IMG/VR virus record: IMGVR_UViG_3300028925_002282
Coordinates: 1 to 24,730 of that record
Length of the DNA: 24,730 nucleotides
Source of the DNA: a virus
Direction: 5' to 3' (one strand)
The first letter of the stretch is position 1. Each line of letters opens with the position of its first letter. The notes under the pieces were generated by a model that ran no database searches, was not told the DNA's origin, and saw only the letters and a list, made by a program, of their open reading frames with translations. A program made the position numbers and the translations under genes. Below are positions 15,801 to 22,180 of the stretch, piece by piece.

Positions 15801-17030
15801 ATGGAAAACACACACTTGAAGTACAAAGATGAAATAAACGATCTTTGGGAGATAGGGCATGGATATACTCAAATTGCTATAATAATTAACGAGAGGCACA
15901 ATCTGGGCCTATCAACTGATTATTTTAGGAAGAAAATAAAAACCATTATAAAATACACTTTAGCCGATAAAGAGATTGTTGAATACAATGTAAGGCTATC
16001 AAAGCAAAAACAAAAGGCACAGGATCAAAGCCGAATTGCAAACAAATCATTCAGAGAGCATGCACGTTTGGAAAATTCATTAACGGCATACAATGAGGAA
16101 ATCATTAAGGTATTAAAAGAAAATTCATTGGAAACAGAATTTCCAAAAATTGAAATGGTTGGGAATGGTGCAATGGTTGTGCAAATTGCTGATACACATT
16201 TTAATGAGTTGGTTGATTTGGATCACAATAAATATGATTTTGAAGTTGCTGCAAAGAGGTTGCAAAAATTTGCATACTACACAAAAAAATATGCTGAATT
16301 GCATGGTGTTAAAAATATACTTATTGCCATAACTGGGGATTTAATAAATTCTGATAGGCGATTGGATGAAAAATTAAGCATGGCAACAAACAGGGCAAAG
16401 GCCACATTTTTGGGTGTTCATTTAATTAAACATTTCATTTTGGATTTAAGCAAGGTTGCAACAATAAGTGTTGCATGTGTTACAGGGAATGAATCCAGGG
16501 TGAATGAGGAATTGGGATGGGTTGATTTGGTTGCTTCAGATAATTACGATTTCACAATTTTTGAAATGTTAAGGTTATTATTGCCAAAAATAAATTTCAT
16601 TAGGGGAAACGCATTGGAATTAGTTGTTGAGGTTGCAGGGCAAAATGTGTTGCTTATTCATGGGCATCAGCTGGGCAAAATGGATAGCAATAGAATTGCA
16701 AAGGTAGTGGCGAAATATAGCCGTAAAGGGGTGCAAATACACTTCATTATCTGTGGCCACTTACATGAAACCATGATAACGGATTTATTTGCAAGGAGTT
16801 CATCATTAGTTGGTGCAAATGCTTATTCAGAAAACGCATTAAATTTAAGTTCAAGAGCCGCACAAAATATTTACATAATGAAAAAAGATGGTAGGCACGA
16901 TATAAGAATTGATTTACAGGAAACAAAAGGGTTTAAAGGTTATAAGATTGATAAGGAATTATTCAGTTATAATGCAAAAAGTTTAAATAAAACTATGCAA
17001 AACCATACGATTTTCAAAATAATTATATAG
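15801..17030 (+). CDS. calcineurin-like metallophosphoesterase with N-terminal HTH-like segment
   Basis: The 409-residue protein has an N-terminal segment (residues 10-50, LWEIGHGYTQIAIIINERH) that reads like a helix-turn-helix. A coiled-coil linker and a calcineurin-like catalytic domain follow. Metal-binding motifs are present in order: DTH (131-133), GD (179-180), GN (229-230), HGH (287-289) and GHLH (319-322). In the third motif the usual GNHD/E is GNES, so the catalytic His is missing or replaced. It may act on phosphodiester or nucleotide bonds, possibly on DNA. It is the last gene before the terminator at 17067, which places it in the late transcription unit. The substrate is unknown. 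Confidence 0.75.
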   Translation: MENTHLKYKDEINDLWEIGHGYTQIAIIINERHNLGLSTDYFRKKIKTIIKYTLADKEIVEYNVRLSKQKQKAQDQSRIANKSFREHARLENSLTAYNEEIIKVLKENSLETEFPKIEMVGNGAMVVQIADTHFNELVDLDHNKYDFEVAAKRLQKFAYYTKKYAELHGVKNILIAITGDLINSDRRLDEKLSMATNRAKATFLGVHLIKHFILDLSKVATISVACVTGNESRVNEELGWVDLVASDNYDFTIFEMLRLLLPKINFIRGNALELVVEVAGQNVLLIHGHQLGKMDSNRIAKVVAKYSRKGVQIHFIICGHLHETMITDLFARSSSLVGANAYSENALNLSSRAAQNIYIMKKDGRHDIRIDLQETKGFKGYKIDKELFSYNAKSLNKTMQNHTIFKIII

Positions 17031-17066
17031 ATTTGCAGTCATAATACTTTGTTTTAGTTAAGAATT

Positions 17067-17099
17067 TGCATCCTTTTTTTGGGGTGCATTTTCTTTTTT
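17067..17099 (+). terminator. intrinsic terminator at end of late block
   Basis: TGCATCC (17067-17073) pairs with GGGTGCA (17082-17088), 7 bp with one T-G wobble. The 8-nt loop is T-rich, and an 11-nt T-rich tract (TTTTCTTTTTT, 17089-17099) follows. It sits 37 nt past the stop of the metallophosphoesterase and 42 nt before the early promoter, dividing the genome into two transcription units. Confidence 0.8.
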
Positions 17100-17141: not shown

Positions 17142-17173
17142 TTTGCACAGTTGTTTAAAATATTATATGTTTG
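17142..17173 (+). promoter_or_regulatory. Bacteroidota-type promoter of the early region
   Basis: TTTG (17142-17145), a 20-nt spacer, then TATGTTTG (17166-17173) match the Bacteroidota primary sigma consensus (TTTG or TTG, about 19-21 nt, TAnnTTTG). The first small gene starts 23 nt downstream of the -7 element, giving a short leader. A terminator lies directly upstream. I infer this promoter drives most genes from 17196 to the right edge. Confidence 0.8.
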
Positions 17174-17623: not shown

Positions 17624-18031
17624 ATGGATAAAACAGAATTGACTAAATTTTACAAATTACATAATTTAAAACCATCTGATGTTTACAAAGATAAAAGGGG
17701 TTTTGTAATTATAACAAGGAGTGGAATAGAAAAGATAAAAAACCAAAATAAAATAAAGGTTGGGTTTGAAATGATTGTGTGCGATATTGACAATGTAGTG
17801 ATTAAGGCAATCAGCATGAGGTTTGATGCAAATGCTGATGAGTTTATCCCAATTATTGAAACATTTGGGAGTGCAAACAAAGAAAATTGTAGGCAAACAT
17901 TTAAGGTTGAGATTGCAGAAAAACGAGCATTGGCACGTTGTATAATCAAAACAATGCAATGGACTGATATGATGGGTGAAGATGAAATCGAAAACCAACC
18001 AGCCAAGTCATTAAACGCATTGAAATCATGA
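17624..18031 (+). CDS. possible single-strand annealing / recombination protein
   Basis: The 135-residue protein begins DKTELTKFYKLHNLKPSDVYKD and has a beta-rich centre (FVIITRSGIEKIKNQNKIKVGFEMIVCDIDNVVIKAISMRF). ETFGSANKENCRQTF follows, and a helix carries AEKRALARCIIKTM (residues 98-111). A beta sheet with an AEKRALxR helix is a trait shared, in my reading, with Rad52-like phage annealing proteins (for example the AETRAxGRAL helix of Sak3-type proteins). The gene sits upstream of an exonuclease and an SSB, which is where an annealase would be expected. The family is not certain. Confidence 0.45.
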   Translation: MDKTELTKFYKLHNLKPSDVYKDKRGFVIITRSGIEKIKNQNKIKVGFEMIVCDIDNVVIKAISMRFDANADEFIPIIETFGSANKENCRQTFKVEIAEKRALARCIIKTMQWTDMMGEDEIENQPAKSLNALKS

Positions 18032-18291
18032 GTGAAATAAAAAGGGAGGTTGAGGTAATTGTTTTATTGGCATTGGTGAAATGTGTTTCGGAACAATGTT
18101 CTGTATTAAAGGATCAACATTCAATGAACGTGAAGCAAAAATTCAATAGGTTAATGAAAGCGGCCCGAAATTATGAAAAGGAAATTGATGTTATAATGGA
18201 ACAAACTGGGGATTTCAATATTGAAAATGTGTACGATACAATAATGGAAACAATTAACGAATCAAAAACAATAGTTTATGAGCAAATTTAA
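18028..18291 (+). CDS. hypothetical helical protein
   Basis: The 87-residue, all-helical, charged protein (SEIKREVEVIVLLALVKCVSEQCSVLKDQHSMNVK...) overlaps its upstream gene (ATGA) and the nuclease downstream (14 nt). A weak pattern of paired helices may form a coiled coil. No family was recognised. Its location between the putative annealing protein and the nuclease suggests a partner in recombination. Confidence 0.55.
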   Translation: MSEIKREVEVIVLLALVKCVSEQCSVLKDQHSMNVKQKFNRLMKAARNYEKEIDVIMEQTGDFNIENVYDTIMETINESKTIVYEQI

Positions 18292-19012
18292 AATAAGCCA
18301 ATCGGCATTAAAAAGTTTCTTTGATCCAAATGTTTGTGATATCAAATGGGAGGAAATGTATTTAAACGGATACCGCACAGAACCAAGTGCAGCAATGTTG
18401 GATGGTTTGGTTTTTGAGCAACATGTAATTGGCGGTTCAAGGGGTGGCGAGGTTTACGAAATACCAAAAGGAAAGACAGGGAAAATGTTAAAAAGGGAAA
18501 CCGATTTAATGGCATTGTGTGAAAAGTCAATCCAAACAATGAATGATCTGGAAATTGAATTGATTGATGTGCAACCTGAATGGAATGTTGGGGATTTAAC
18601 AGGCCATCCTGATGCATTGGTGAAATACAAAGGGGAATTGGCAATCATGGATTTAAAATATACTGGGGTTCGGGAAGATGAAAGTTGCCGCTGGAATCCA
18701 TTTGCATGGGCTGATTTGGAACATAAGGATTTCAGGCAGGCATTACATTACATTGAAATGTATTATCAGGAACATGGGATTTATTTACCATTTTTTTACT
18801 TAGTATTTGGTAAAAGTGGATGGTGCAAATTCATAATGATTGATGTTTCAGGTGGTGCAATGGATGATTATAGAATGTTGTTAGATTCATTCAGGCGAGA
18901 ATTCAAGGCCTTTAAACCAAAACCAATTAGGAAATATGAGGTGTGTAGAAAATGCCCAGTATTATGTGATAAAAGAACAAACAAACCAAACATTGAAACA
19001 ATTACGATATGA
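18278..19012 (+). CDS. RecB/Cas4-like PD-(D/E)XK nuclease with four-Cys motif
   Basis: The 244-residue protein starts with the RecB-like ISQSALKSFFDP. LDGLVFEQHVIG (residues 41-52) matches motif I of RecB-type nucleases. The active site reads GHPDALV (D112) and MDLKYTG (D125, K127), followed by a helix with the conserved FRQALHYIEMY. Cys20 near the N terminus and C223-x2-C226-x3-C230 near the C terminus are placed as in AddB/Cas4-type Fe-S nucleases, so a 4Fe-4S cluster is possible. It likely resects linear DNA 5' ends for strand annealing. Neighbours are the putative annealing protein and the SSB. Confidence 0.75.
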   Translation: MSKFKISQSALKSFFDPNVCDIKWEEMYLNGYRTEPSAAMLDGLVFEQHVIGGSRGGEVYEIPKGKTGKMLKRETDLMALCEKSIQTMNDLEIELIDVQPEWNVGDLTGHPDALVKYKGELAIMDLKYTGVREDESCRWNPFAWADLEHKDFRQALHYIEMYYQEHGIYLPFFYLVFGKSGWCKFIMIDVSGGAMDDYRMLLDSFRREFKAFKPKPIRKYEVCRKCPVLCDKRTNKPNIETITI

Positions 19013-19383
19013 TAAAAATAGTTAAAGAAGCCGCAAGGGTTTCATCAAATTTATGGGATGCCAATATTGAAAGGGTGTTGGGAAATGATTGTCGAAAGGA
19101 TCACACTATAAAAGCAAAACGAATGCTGATTTATTATCTTTACAACTTTGTTGAAATAAGCCACAACAAAATGAAATTGTATATTAAAAATTTGGATCAT
19201 GCAACAAGCATTTACCATTGTAAAAAATTCAATGATGATTTATTGGAAAGCGAAATGATAACAATGAAGTTTGGGTTTTTTATGGGTGAAATGAGGGCAT
19301 TTAGCATTTATGGTGAGGAATTTGAGCAAAAGAAAAAAGAGTTGGAAATATTAAAAAGGGAAATAATTAATTTAAAAAAGTAG
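19009..19383 (+). CDS. DnaA domain IV-like DNA-binding protein
   Basis: The 124-residue protein has no AAA+ domain but carries a DnaA C-terminal (domain IV)-like segment at about residues 28-75. It includes CRKDHTIKAKRMLIYYLYNF, an SHNKMKLYIKNL helix, and DHATSIYHCKKF (DHAT at 63-66), which matches the DnaA signature DHSTVxxAxKK. In DnaA this segment recognises the DnaA box. A charged coiled coil makes up the end (EEFEQKKKELEILKREIINLKK). It overlaps the nuclease gene (ATGA) and precedes the SSB. It may bind the phage origin or host DnaA boxes, either to recruit or to block DnaA. Confidence 0.75.
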   Translation: MIKIVKEAARVSSNLWDANIERVLGNDCRKDHTIKAKRMLIYYLYNFVEISHNKMKLYIKNLDHATSIYHCKKFNDDLLESEMITMKFGFFMGEMRAFSIYGEEFEQKKKELEILKREIINLKK

Positions 19384-19386
19384 AAA

Positions 19387-19704
19387 ATGAAAGTAAATGG
19401 TAAGTTGGTAAAATTTTTAGAGGTTCAAAAAGGAACATCAAAGGCAGGAAAGGAATGGATGAAACAGGAATTTGTTATTGATACAGGTGGGGAATACAAT
19501 CCAGAGGTTTGCCTTAGTGTATTTGGTGAGGATAAAGTTAAGGCATTAAAACAATTTAGTGAGGGCCAAGAGTTGGAGGTTGAAATAAATATTTATTCAA
19601 GGGAATACAAAGGGAAATACTATCATTCAATTGATGCATGGAAAATTGAAGTTACTGGCGGCAATAGTCAGGAAGTTGAAAGTTCTGATGGATTGCCATT
19701 TTAA
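19387..19704 (+). CDS. single-stranded DNA-binding protein, DUF3127 family
   Basis: The 105-residue OB-fold protein matches DUF3127, a family typical of Bacteroidota: VNGKLVKFLEVQKGTSKAGKEWMKQEFVID, EVCLSVFGEDKV, GQELEVEINIYSREYKGKYYHSIDAWKIE. The C terminus is acidic and ends DGLPF (101-105), resembling the DDIPF tip of bacterial SSB through which host repair and replication proteins are recruited. It sits 4 nt after the DnaA-like gene and 3 nt before the winged-helix gene. It likely coats single-stranded phage DNA made by the nuclease. Confidence 0.8.
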   Translation: MKVNGKLVKFLEVQKGTSKAGKEWMKQEFVIDTGGEYNPEVCLSVFGEDKVKALKQFSEGQELEVEINIYSREYKGKYYHSIDAWKIEVTGGNSQEVESSDGLPF

Positions 19705-19706
19705 TT

Positions 19707-20078
19707 ATGATAAAAGGATTTGAAACGATTACGGCCGATTTAAGCAATGATGAGTTGCAAATGGTACAAAGTATCATAAAAGGATTAAAAGGCAAGCAGG
19801 GCAAGGATAACGCAATAACAGGCGCAAAAATTTGTGATGCAATGGGTTTGCATGGTGCAAGGTTGCGAAAGTTAATAAACCACATTAGGATCAACAACCT
19901 TTTACCATGTTTATGCTCAACATCAAATGGTTATTTTGTAGCAACAAACATTGAGGAATTAGAAAATTATATAATTTCATTAAAGCAAAGGATAAAAGCC
20001 CAGGTTGATGTTTTAAACGCATTAGAGCAACAAACAATAATTTTTGGAGGTACAGGGCAAATAACATTATTTGAATAA
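19707..20078 (+). CDS. winged-helix protein ending in clamp-binding-like motif
   Basis: In this 123-residue protein, residues 30-80 look like a winged helix (ITGAKICDAMGLHGARLRKLINHIR, then a wing with LCSTSNGYFVATNIEEL). A helix ENYIISLKQRIKAQVDVLNAL follows. The last residues are GQITLFE, with QITLF at 118-122. This matches the consensus of the bacterial sliding-clamp binding peptide (Q-x-x-L-F, for example QLNLF). The protein may therefore bridge DNA and the host beta clamp. It sits between the SSB and the first methyltransferase. The family is not known. Confidence 0.65.
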   Translation: MIKGFETITADLSNDELQMVQSIIKGLKGKQGKDNAITGAKICDAMGLHGARLRKLINHIRINNLLPCLCSTSNGYFVATNIEELENYIISLKQRIKAQVDVLNALEQQTIIFGGTGQITLFE

Positions 20079-20092
20079 AAATACAAACTAAA

Positions 20093-20509
20093 ATGAAAAA
20101 TAGAAATTTAAAACATGTGGATGATTGGGCAACACCTAAATATTTATATAATGAATTAGACAAGGAATTTAATTTTGATTTTGATCCATGCCCATTGCAA
20201 CATAATATTGAAGATTGGGATGGATTAAATGTTGATTGGGGTAATTGTAATTTTGTCAATCCCCCTTATTCCAGAAAATTAAAAGAAGCATTTGTTTTAA
20301 GGGCAATTGAAGAATCTAAAAAAGGAAAAAAATGCATTTTACTTTTACCTGTTTCAACATCAACAAAATTATTTCACAACTATATCTTACCAAATAAAAA
20401 GGAAATAAGATTTTTATTTAAAAGAATTAAATTTATTGGGGTAAATACATTTGGTGAGAAAGTTAGTGATAAGTGTGGGATGCATGATTCAATGATAGTT
20501 GTTTTTTAA
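20093..20509 (+). CDS. phage DNA N6-adenine methyltransferase (phage_Dam type)
   Basis: The 138-residue protein has the pattern of the phage Dam family (pfam05869-like): DDWATPKYLYNELDKEFNFDFDPCP (residues 10-34), then VNPPYSRKLKEAF with the catalytic NPPY (56-59), and later IRFLFKRIKFIGVNTFGEK. It methylates adenine in double-stranded DNA, probably to guard the phage genome against host restriction. No restriction enzyme gene is adjacent, so this is likely an orphan methylase. Its stop lies 1 nt before the next ATG (20511). Confidence 0.85.
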   Translation: MKNRNLKHVDDWATPKYLYNELDKEFNFDFDPCPLQHNIEDWDGLNVDWGNCNFVNPPYSRKLKEAFVLRAIEESKKGKKCILLLPVSTSTKLFHNYILPNKKEIRFLFKRIKFIGVNTFGEKVSDKCGMHDSMIVVF

Positions 20510-20510
20510 T

Positions 20511-21179
20511 ATGGAAATAATAAGAGTAATAAAAAATAAAAACTATTCCACAATCAATAATGAAATATTGAGGGATAAAAACATTTCTTTAAAAGCAAAA
20601 GGATTATTGATTACAATTTTAAGTTTGCCACCTGGTTGGGATTTAACAATTGCAGGAATGAGTGCAATTTGTAAGGAGGGTAAAAGAAGTATTGGTTCAG
20701 CAATAAATGAATTAATTGAATTTGGATACATTAAAAGGAACGCAATTAAGGATGGGACAATGTTTGCTGGTTATGAGTATTTTGTTTATGAATCACCCAA
20801 GTGCGGTTTTGTGGTTACGGGAAATGGGGATGCGCAAAATGTGGTTACGCAAAACGGCACGCAATTAAGTACTTATAAAAATAAAACCTTAAATAATAAA
20901 GTAAATATTAATGGTAGGTTTCAAAAACCTTTAATTTCTGAAATTTCAAATTACATTGAGGAAAGGGGAAATTTAATTGATCCAAACAAATTTTACGATT
21001 ATTATGAAAGCAATGGATGGAAAGTTGGCCGCAACAAAATGAAATGTTGGAAGTCGGCAATTAGGAATTGGGAAAATATGCGAAAAGATAAGGGCCAAAT
21101 GGAATCTAAAGTAATGGAAAGATTATCAAGCCATGATAAGGCAAAGGAAATATTAAAAAACATGCATAATGGGAATTAA
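20511..21179 (+). CDS. replication initiator-like protein (winged helix, DnaD-like tail)
   Basis: From ATG 20511 the protein is 222 residues; a TTG at 20499 would overlap the methylase and is less likely. The N-terminal 90 residues read as a winged helix (NEILRDKNISLKAKGLLITILSLPPGWDLT, then a recognition helix KEGKRSIGSAINELIEFGYIKR) as in RepA_N or DnaD-like replication initiators. A low-complexity linker with many Asn and Gln follows. The C-terminal part has a helix set FYDYYESNGWKVGRNKMKCWKSAIRNWEN, typical of phage replisome organisers that load helicase. No helicase or primase is visible, so host proteins are probably recruited. Confidence 0.7.
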   Translation: MEIIRVIKNKNYSTINNEILRDKNISLKAKGLLITILSLPPGWDLTIAGMSAICKEGKRSIGSAINELIEFGYIKRNAIKDGTMFAGYEYFVYESPKCGFVVTGNGDAQNVVTQNGTQLSTYKNKTLNNKVNINGRFQKPLISEISNYIEERGNLIDPNKFYDYYESNGWKVGRNKMKCWKSAIRNWENMRKDKGQMESKVMERLSSHDKAKEILKNMHNGN

Positions 21180-21783
21180 TTTACACAATATGGATTGCTT
21201 AAAAGCAATGAAAGAAATGCAGGATAATGAATTTGATTTGGCAATAGTTGATCCTCCTTATGGAATAGATATTAAAACAAGGGTATTTAATGATGGTAAA
21301 AAATGGGATAGTGAAATACCAAATGAAAAATATTTTAAAGAACTAAAGAGAGTTTCAAAAAACCAAATTATTTGGGGTGGAAATTATTTTTTAGATTATT
21401 TAGGGGCTACGCCTTGTTTTTTAATTTGGGATAAAAAAATGACAGATAAACACCTAATGAGTATGAGTGAAATGGCTTGGACAAGTTTTAATACAAAGAA
21501 TTTAATATTTAGGCAACCGCCAGTAGGAGAAAGGGGTTTTTATAGTATAGATGGAAAGAGAATACATCCTACTCAAAAAAGTATAAAACTTTATGAGTGG
21601 ATTTTAATGAATTATGCAGAAAAGGGAAACAAAATTTTAGATACTCATTTAGGAAGCGGATCAATTGCAATTGCATGTGATAATTTAGGATATGATTTAG
21701 AGGGGTTTGAGTTAGATGCGGAATATTTTTATGCAGCAACAAAAAGATTGAAAATTCATCAATCACAAATTAAAATGTTTTAA
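21169..21783 (+). CDS. DNA methyltransferase (N6-adenine or N4-cytosine, beta class)
   Basis: This 204-residue amino-methyltransferase has catalytic DPPYG at 28-32 near the N terminus and the SAM-binding loop DTHLGSGS (158-165; usually DPFxGSGT) near the C terminus, so the order is beta class. HPTQKS (133-138) is the common third mark. The C terminus is HQSQIKMF, where QIKMF (200-204) resembles a beta-clamp peptide (compare QADMF of E. coli DnaE). It overlaps the upstream gene by 11 nt. It likely protects phage DNA or marks an origin; no restriction gene is nearby. Confidence 0.88.
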   Translation: MGINLHNMDCLKAMKEMQDNEFDLAIVDPPYGIDIKTRVFNDGKKWDSEIPNEKYFKELKRVSKNQIIWGGNYFLDYLGATPCFLIWDKKMTDKHLMSMSEMAWTSFNTKNLIFRQPPVGERGFYSIDGKRIHPTQKSIKLYEWILMNYAEKGNKILDTHLGSGSIAIACDNLGYDLEGFELDAEYFYAATKRLKIHQSQIKMF

Positions 21784-21784
21784 A

Positions 21785-22180
21785 ATGGAAATTAAAGAAA
21801 TAAACCAACAGGATTTGGAATTAATGTGCATTGATGTATTAACACAAACATATGCTGATTTAGGGCAAAAGGATAACGATCCGCAAAACAAAGTTATGTT
21901 GGCCCAGAGTTTAGCAAAGGATTTAAAAAGAAGATATGCGTTCATGCCTTTTGATGCTGTAATTTTAGCATTTGAGAATGGGGTTCGGAATACCGATAAA
22001 TTTGTTGTTAGTGCAGCAACATGGTGCAAATGGCTCAATAAGATGAAAGCCGAAATTTGGGATGGGTGGCATCATTTTGAGTTAGGGAATTTTCATGTTA
22101 TCCAGCCACATGTTAAAGTAATAATGAAACAACAACCAGTTACAATGCTGGAATATAAACAAAAGAAAATAAGCAATTAA
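21785..22180 (+). CDS. hypothetical protein, replication-associated by context
   Basis: The 131-residue protein starts 1 nt after the methyltransferase stop. The first half is helical and acidic (QQDLELMCIDVLTQTYADLGQKDNDPQNK), followed by SLAKDLKRRYAFMPFDAVILAFENGVRN and the aromatic segment TWCKWLNKMKAEIWDGWHHFEL. From memory, small Bacteroidota phage proteins with a similar RYxxMxxxxVxxAFxxGVR stretch lie near replication genes, possibly as helicase loaders, but I cannot assign a function. Confidence 0.6.
   Translation: MEIKEINQQDLELMCIDVLTQTYADLGQKDNDPQNKVMLAQSLAKDLKRRYAFMPFDAVILAFENGVRNTDKFVVSAATWCKWLNKMKAEIWDGWHHFELGNFHVIQPHVKVIMKQQPVTMLEYKQKKISN

Follow-up and report, generated by a model that had tools for sequence, protein, structure and literature searches.

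The DNA analyzed here, which we call the window, is the whole of the 24,730-base IMG/VR virus record IMGVR_UViG_3300028925_002282. We think it likely that the window contains the early recombination and replication operon of a small Bacteroidota siphophage, and that this operon encodes a minimal single-strand annealing protein (SSAP) of 135 amino acids (aa). Five tightly linked genes on the plus strand are central to this proposal. Their open reading frames (ORFs) are predicted to encode the 135-aa annealase-like protein (17624-18031), a small accessory protein of 87 aa (18028-18291), a 244-aa PD-(D/E)XK nuclease (18278-19012), a 124-aa protein similar to domain IV of DnaA (19009-19383), and a 105-aa single-stranded DNA-binding protein (SSB) of the DUF3127 family (19387-19704). 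The genes are translationally linked, with overlaps of 4, 14, and 4 nt at the first three junctions and 3 nt between the DnaA-like and SSB genes. An initial annotation had described this linkage from the letters of the sequence; the ORFs lie exactly where it placed them. The sequence contains the AEKRALAR helix that it pointed out, as well as motifs of a nuclease, a match to DnaA, and a tip on the SSB (SDGLPF). The closest relatives (L002, L003, and L021; 55-91% identity) have homologues of all five genes in an identical order, and each of the 19 loci from the first search has the first and fourth genes. The existence of homologues in other viral contigs indicates that the five ORFs are real genes and not chance ORFs. 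The window also contains genes for the small and large terminase, portal, HK97-type capsid, and tape measure and is therefore from a phage. This phage is a small siphophage of the Bacteroidota type, with a tail, that belongs to a group with contigs of 24-29 kb and has marine Bacteroidota as its host group.

The structure of the 135-aa protein was predicted with AlphaFold2 using an alignment of 39 family members. The model has a predicted local distance difference test (pLDDT) score of 80 and a predicted template modeling (pTM) score of 0.70, with pLDDT of 86-94 across most of residues 31-110 and 75 near the hairpin. It is comprised of a helix (residues 3-12), two strands (20-22 and 28-30), a helix (32-41), three strands (45-53, 57-68, and 73-85), and a final helix (94-110), giving the order α-β-β-α-β-β-β-α. 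In the Rad52 annealase fold, helix α3 crosses an antiparallel sheet of three strands, and α1, α2, and a β-hairpin make up the rest (PMC9870868); the order is also written as β-β-α-β-β-β-α (PMC9512822). All five elements of this fold are found in order in the predicted model. After VIA realignment, human RAD52 occupied ranks 1-7 (Z 7.1-7.5, 93-103 residues aligned). Mgm101 (Z 6.5, 6.5, and 6.2) and λ Redβ (7ujl, Z 6.0, 102 residues aligned) were found further down, amid rows of double-stranded RNA-binding domains (dsRBDs). When compared with models of viral proteins, the named matches that came after those to its own family included 'Rad52/59/22' (6e-4), 'RecT family' (4e-3), SAK3 (8e-3), and ERF (1e-2), and a RecE-annotated model also matched (6e-4).

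The 39-member alignment contains seven invariant residues (L15, G34, G82, K100, R101, R105, and E121). K100, R101, and R105 are the sole invariant basic residues across these diverse members and all three sit on model helix 94-110. In RAD52, K152, R153, and R156 bind single-stranded DNA (ssDNA), as do K148, R149, and R152 in Redβ (PMC3823998, PMC9772228). Helix 94-110 of the model is the predicted counterpart of the ssDNA-binding helix of RAD52 and Redβ. Because of the predicted fold, the structural matches, the conservation of K100, R101, and R105, and the SSB and RecE-type neighbors described below, the 135-aa protein appears to be a minimal SSAP from an undescribed sequence family of the Rad52 superfamily. 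The structure search therefore agrees, at the level of a modeled fold, with the description of this protein as annealing-like in the initial annotation.

Several results weigh against this assignment. Searched alone, the 135-aa protein had no significant match to a Pfam, NCBIfam, or named PHROG family and no match among PDB sequences, and comparison by hhalign with RecT, ERF, and Rad52 sets, all of them small, gave no significant score, the best being that with ERF (E=0.19 over 98 columns). Foldseek comparison of the model with the PDB yielded no match with E <0.05 and left RAD52 outside the top 50, so that RAD52 ranked first only in the VIA realignment, where all Z-scores were below 8. In that same list dsRBDs reached Z 5-7 over 62-80 residues, so a common α/β topology accounts for some of the resemblance. 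The Lys-Arg pair agrees with RAD52 and Redβ, but the third Arg is shifted by one residue (KRxxxR versus KRxxR). The 135-aa protein might then be an α/β protein that binds nucleic acid or protein, such as a dsRBD-like protein or a mediator of SSB loading, that has a Rad52-like topology by coincidence and does not anneal DNA. The top Foldseek match, a dsRBD with E=0.06, and the lack of a sequence link to known annealases are both in line with this. We nonetheless consider it unlikely since the matches to RAD52, Mgm101, and Redβ span 93-103 residues, from approximately 4 to 123, and include the N-terminal helix and the hairpin, whereas the dsRBD matches mostly cover only residues 28-113 or so. 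The matches to annealase-annotated viral models and the adjacency of SSB genes and, in one locus, of a RecE gene also suit an annealase better. For scale, LiRecT and RAD52, an accepted pair, superpose over just 83 residues (5.5 Å), and RAD52 is not among the top matches of LiRecT (PMC9772228).

Using tblastn, we found relatives of the putative SSAP with 34-38% identity in 49 records of cultured Flavobacterium and Tenacibaculum phages, all annotated as 'hypothetical' in the listed records. A pattern scan identified at least 530 relatives in IMG/VR, and the family also occurs in Hymenobacter chromosomes and flavobacterial metagenome-assembled genomes (MAGs). Most phage members are 125-135 residues long and Hymenobacter members carry tails of 60-160 residues. 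Annealase-family genes are also present on contigs labeled as Euryarchaeota and Actinomycetota MAGs (L105 and L106), which are probably mis-binned phage contigs. The window protein has no match to RecT (PF03837), ERF (PF04404), Rad52_Rad22 (PF04098), or SSAP_Sak (PF06378). Among 42 members the best match to a known SSAP profile was to RecT, at a non-significant E=0.0029 in two members. Judged by sequence, the family is filed in none of these four. A Pfam AIPR match of the protein (E=0.028) was rejected as chance. In 21 records that carry the family, including the window, the RecT, ERF, and Rad52 Pfam models had no match, which fits the 135-aa protein being the annealase of these phages. No relative was seen beside the DUF3127 gene of the Gundel_1 record within the 15 kb read.

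The family thus resembles the Rad52 superfamily (RAD52, Mgm101, Redβ/RecT, Erf, Sak, and Sak3) in the predicted order of its elements, its structural matches, a Lys-Arg pair that is invariant in the third helix of the core, and its SSB neighbors, with a RecE-type exonuclease neighbor in one distant locus. Unlike the named families of this superfamily, it has no sequence match to any of them. It also differs from Redβ, where residues 178-261 bind λ exonuclease (PMC9512822), in that most phage members have almost no C-terminal partner-binding domain.

The initial annotation had called the 244-aa protein an Fe-S-type nuclease similar to RecB and Cas4, and this was supported by an AlphaFold2 model (pLDDT 75, pTM 0.76) and by an alignment of 12 members. 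The model matched 3l0a (Z 14.1), AdnAB (13.7), ACE1/Cas4 (12.6), RecE (12.4), MGME1 (11.9), λ exonuclease (10), and AddB (9.9). Invariant residues in the alignment are D112, D125-L126-K127, and Q154-x3-Y158, together with four cysteines, C20 and C223-x2-C226-x3-C230. The C-terminal Cys region of the model has pLDDT <50. The protein is thus predicted to have a PD-(D/E)XK exonuclease fold of the AddB/Cas4 kind, and we infer from the four invariant cysteines that it may bind a 4Fe-4S cluster. It is like AddB, AdnAB, and Cas4 nucleases in its fold, its D/DxK and QxxxY motifs, and the position of one Cys far upstream of the C-x2-C-x3-C cluster. The last Cys of AddB and Cas4 follows at a spacing longer than the three residues of the window nuclease. 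Unlike these nucleases it stands alone, with no helicase domain and no Cas1 or Cas2 in the operon. It had no tblastn match in phage records.

Cas4-like proteins of some phages have been proposed to act in CRISPR adaptation or as anti-CRISPR decoys, and the window nuclease could be a factor of this sort that is unrelated to annealing. Its nearest PHROG, matched weakly, is phrog_1706, labeled 'CRISPR/Cas system associated' (E=5e-5), and Cas4 and ACE1 are among its structural matches. By contrast, the general exonucleases 3l0a, AdnAB, RecE, and MGME1 have equal or higher Z-scores, and the nuclease gene has the annealase gene on one side and replication genes on the other. In a PADLOC scan of seven operon proteins, made with no search for CRISPR arrays and with the rest of the window unscanned, the sole Cas match was one to Csn2 at chance level (E=0.009), which was rejected, and hence no Cas partner was detected. 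We regard a role in CRISPR biology as very improbable.

The DnaA-like and SSB assignments of the initial annotation also held. A 29-member profile of the 124-aa protein matched domain IV of DnaA in the PDB (1j1v, E=1.4e-9). The single sequence matched Pfam Bac_DnaA_C with E=0.0048 and its relatives reached 1.4e-9. The full helix-turn-helix (HTH) is aligned, with a DHxT-like motif and an invariant Arg. No match to the AAA+ ATPase domain III was found in the protein, every match being within domain IV, so by sequence it corresponds to DnaA domain IV without the ATPase. In addition to lacking the ATPase, it differs from DnaA in that the D and T positions that read bases are variable, making a different DNA target likely. 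Sites matching the DnaA box TTATNCACA with 1 mismatch are not enriched in the window (44 versus 49 expected), and it is possible that the protein has a target sequence other than the DnaA box. It had no tblastn match in phage records. A second type of DnaA_C-like protein (189 aa, E=3e-5) is encoded after the SSB gene in L060 (4684-5253) and in similar loci (L061, L062, L064, L065, L066, L081, and L105). The presence of this second type in another lineage suggests that proteins with DnaA domain IV are recurrent in these phages.

The 105-aa protein matches DUF3127 (E=5e-27, 94 bits versus a cut-off of 27) and the SSB family phrog_4932 (E=2e-27), and its C-terminus is the acidic tip SDGLPF, the PF of which is invariant in 16 members. 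It is thus predicted to be a DUF3127-type SSB. The 87-aa protein is conserved in only six loci (five homologues), has a weak match to phrog_38024, the function of which is unannotated, and had no relative in phage records.

The initial annotation had also suggested that the five genes are a self-contained and distinct system, and this did not stand. In 21 related viral contigs, which may be fragments, the genes occur separately: the annealase and DnaA-like genes were found in all 21, the nuclease in 9, the DUF3127-type SSB in 6, and the 87-aa protein in 4. Of the five, the annealase and DnaA-like genes alone form a constant pair, and they do so only within the clade of the window. Among 104 loci of the wider annealase family there were 12 with the nuclease, 52 with a DnaA-like gene, and 57 with SSB-tipped genes. 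Absence of the nuclease from most relatives shows that it is not an obligate partner of the annealase, which counts against the operon as we interpret it. SSB-tipped genes were more frequent at positions +1 to +4 from the annealase (39 of 397) than farther off (12 of 772; Fisher p 3e-10, uncorrected for relatedness of the loci). These neighbors belong to three dissimilar SSB-like families with no mutual BLAST clustering. Because the loci are related, this association with several types of SSB is better functional evidence than the count itself.

Similar positions are filled by different proteins in a distant relative, L114 (4450-6244; contig NZMJ01000013.1, labeled as a Maricaulis sp. MAG). 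Here the annealase gene is followed by genes for an exonuclease of the exonuclease VIII/RecE type (phrog_412, 1e-22), an SSB-like protein, a DnaA_C protein (1.4e-9), and a primase-like ORF. Thus, the positions of exonuclease, SSB, and DnaA-like protein recur but are filled by genes that are not orthologous. In another lineage (L077-L080, L090, L091, L095, and L100), typified by L090 (3270-4584), the genes after the annealase encode an SSB-like protein, an AAA_25 RecA-like ATPase (E=2e-8), and a small protein that resembles a sigma factor. In IMGVR_UViG_2228664050 (L021/L025, G201) an SSB gene and a tail of 35 codons from the DnaA-like gene are inverted at the contig end (bases 1-430), approximately 5 kb from the remaining operon, probably due to an assembly artefact. 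The gene block is a mosaic recombination module with parts that are kept, lost, or swapped and is not a fixed five-gene machine.

This mosaic can also be explained by neighbors that share no joint function, with the nuclease degrading host DNA or countering defense, the DnaA-like protein titrating or blocking host DnaA, and only the annealase and SSB cooperating. Such an arrangement would agree with the patchy co-occurrence and with the lack of enrichment of DnaA boxes, but it does not account for the placement of the nuclease, which in all 12 of the loci that have it is at +1 or +2 from the annealase and before the DnaA-like gene, nor for the occupation of that slot in L114 by an exonuclease of another type. 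We regard independent functions as somewhat unlikely. The operon resembles the λ Red (exo-bet) and Rac RecE-RecT operons and the erf-ssb and sak-ssb modules known from Firmicutes phages (PMC8093625) in that an annealase is linked, beside replication genes, to an SSB and sometimes to an exonuclease. The exchange of its parts is typical of phage recombination cassettes and compares with the erf-ssb modules (PMC8093625). It is unlike these operons and modules in that the exonuclease in the clade of the window is optional and of the Fe-S AddB/Cas4 type, and in that the constant neighbor is a protein with DnaA domain IV.

If these genes work together, the following sequence of events is suggested. 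The Fe-S-type exonuclease, where present, would resect DNA ends with a polarity that exposes single strands, and the DUF3127-type SSB would coat them, with its acidic -DGLPF tail perhaps recruiting partners. The 135-aa protein probably oligomerizes on ssDNA, with one strand bound in a basic groove that the K100/R101/R105 helix lines, and would zip a complementary strand onto it with no need for ATP. This annealing could join or circularize genome ends and build concatemers to be packaged by the phage terminase. The DnaA-domain-IV-like protein may bind and mark the phage origin, where it and an HTH_36/DnaD-like protein encoded downstream would load the host replication machinery by helicase loading. 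Recombination may be coupled to replication, and recombination-dependent replication in this phage is plausible. A bolder proposal is that the 135-aa proteins are a sixth, unnamed family of the Rad52 superfamily, widespread in Bacteroidota phages and pared down to the annealing domain alone, and that their constant pairing with an ATPase-free DnaA-domain-IV protein targets annealing to the phage origin for a DnaA-guided start of recombination-dependent replication; we think this rather improbable.

The genes from the annealase to approximately position 22180 read as a single operon. Two nucleotides after the SSB gene is a conserved gene on the plus strand (19707-20078) for a 123-aa protein with no assigned function (phrog_2113, E=8e-26), which is present in 23 of the 104 loci, mostly at +2 to +4 from the annealase. 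Farther downstream on the same strand is the gene for the 226-aa HTH_36/DnaD-like protein (20499-21179; HTH_36 E=6e-8), a putative replication initiator or helicase loader that matches both the initiator family phrog_4707 (8e-19) and the DnaD-like loader family phrog_186 (5e-15) and has counterparts in 45 of the 104 loci. Two DNA methyltransferase genes (Dam, PF05869, and N6_N4_Mtase; 20093-20509 and 21169-21783) flank the HTH_36 gene and are present in some close relatives and missing in others. A small conserved gene with no family (21785-22180) accompanies the annealase and HTH_36 genes in 39 loci.

Upstream of the annealase gene is a metallophosphoesterase-like gene (15801-17030; Metallophos_2 E=1e-4, under the Pfam cut-off) that precedes the annealase gene in approximately 40 of the 104 loci. 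Between these two genes is a weak terminator-like hairpin with a T run on the plus strand (17065-17098; scan match 17067-17088) that may close the upstream transcription unit, with the count of such sites in the region being at chance level. A weak candidate promoter of the operon, of the Bacteroidota type (TTTG-N20-TAnnTTTG), is located at 17142-17173 on the plus strand. This motif has 2 matches in the window versus 1.8 expected by chance, so only its position is suggestive, and a similar motif lies between the two genes in 13 of the 40 loci. RNA structure in the gap upstream of the operon is ordinary (z=-0.37), and a search for repeats and iterons around the operon turned up only weak families of two or three copies, as is usual in AT-rich DNA.

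Both the fold and this kind of module are already known. What is new is an unannotated sequence family, close to a bare annealing domain, that is common in Bacteroidota phages and that has a constant DnaA-domain-IV neighbor in the clade of the window. The 135-aa family may be among the structural SSAP candidates, thousands in number and unconfirmed, that were listed by a recent screen of 117 million unannotated proteins (PMC11783212). Annealing proteins are drivers of phage mosaicism and the working part of recombineering. If the assignment is correct, the 135-aa family would be among the smallest natural annealing domains, useful for structural work, would be a candidate for recombineering in Bacteroidota, and would fill the annealase gap in the cultured Flavobacterium and Tenacibaculum phages examined, which carry it as 'hypothetical protein', and in the 21 family-carrying records searched, which have no recognizable RecT, ERF, or Rad52.

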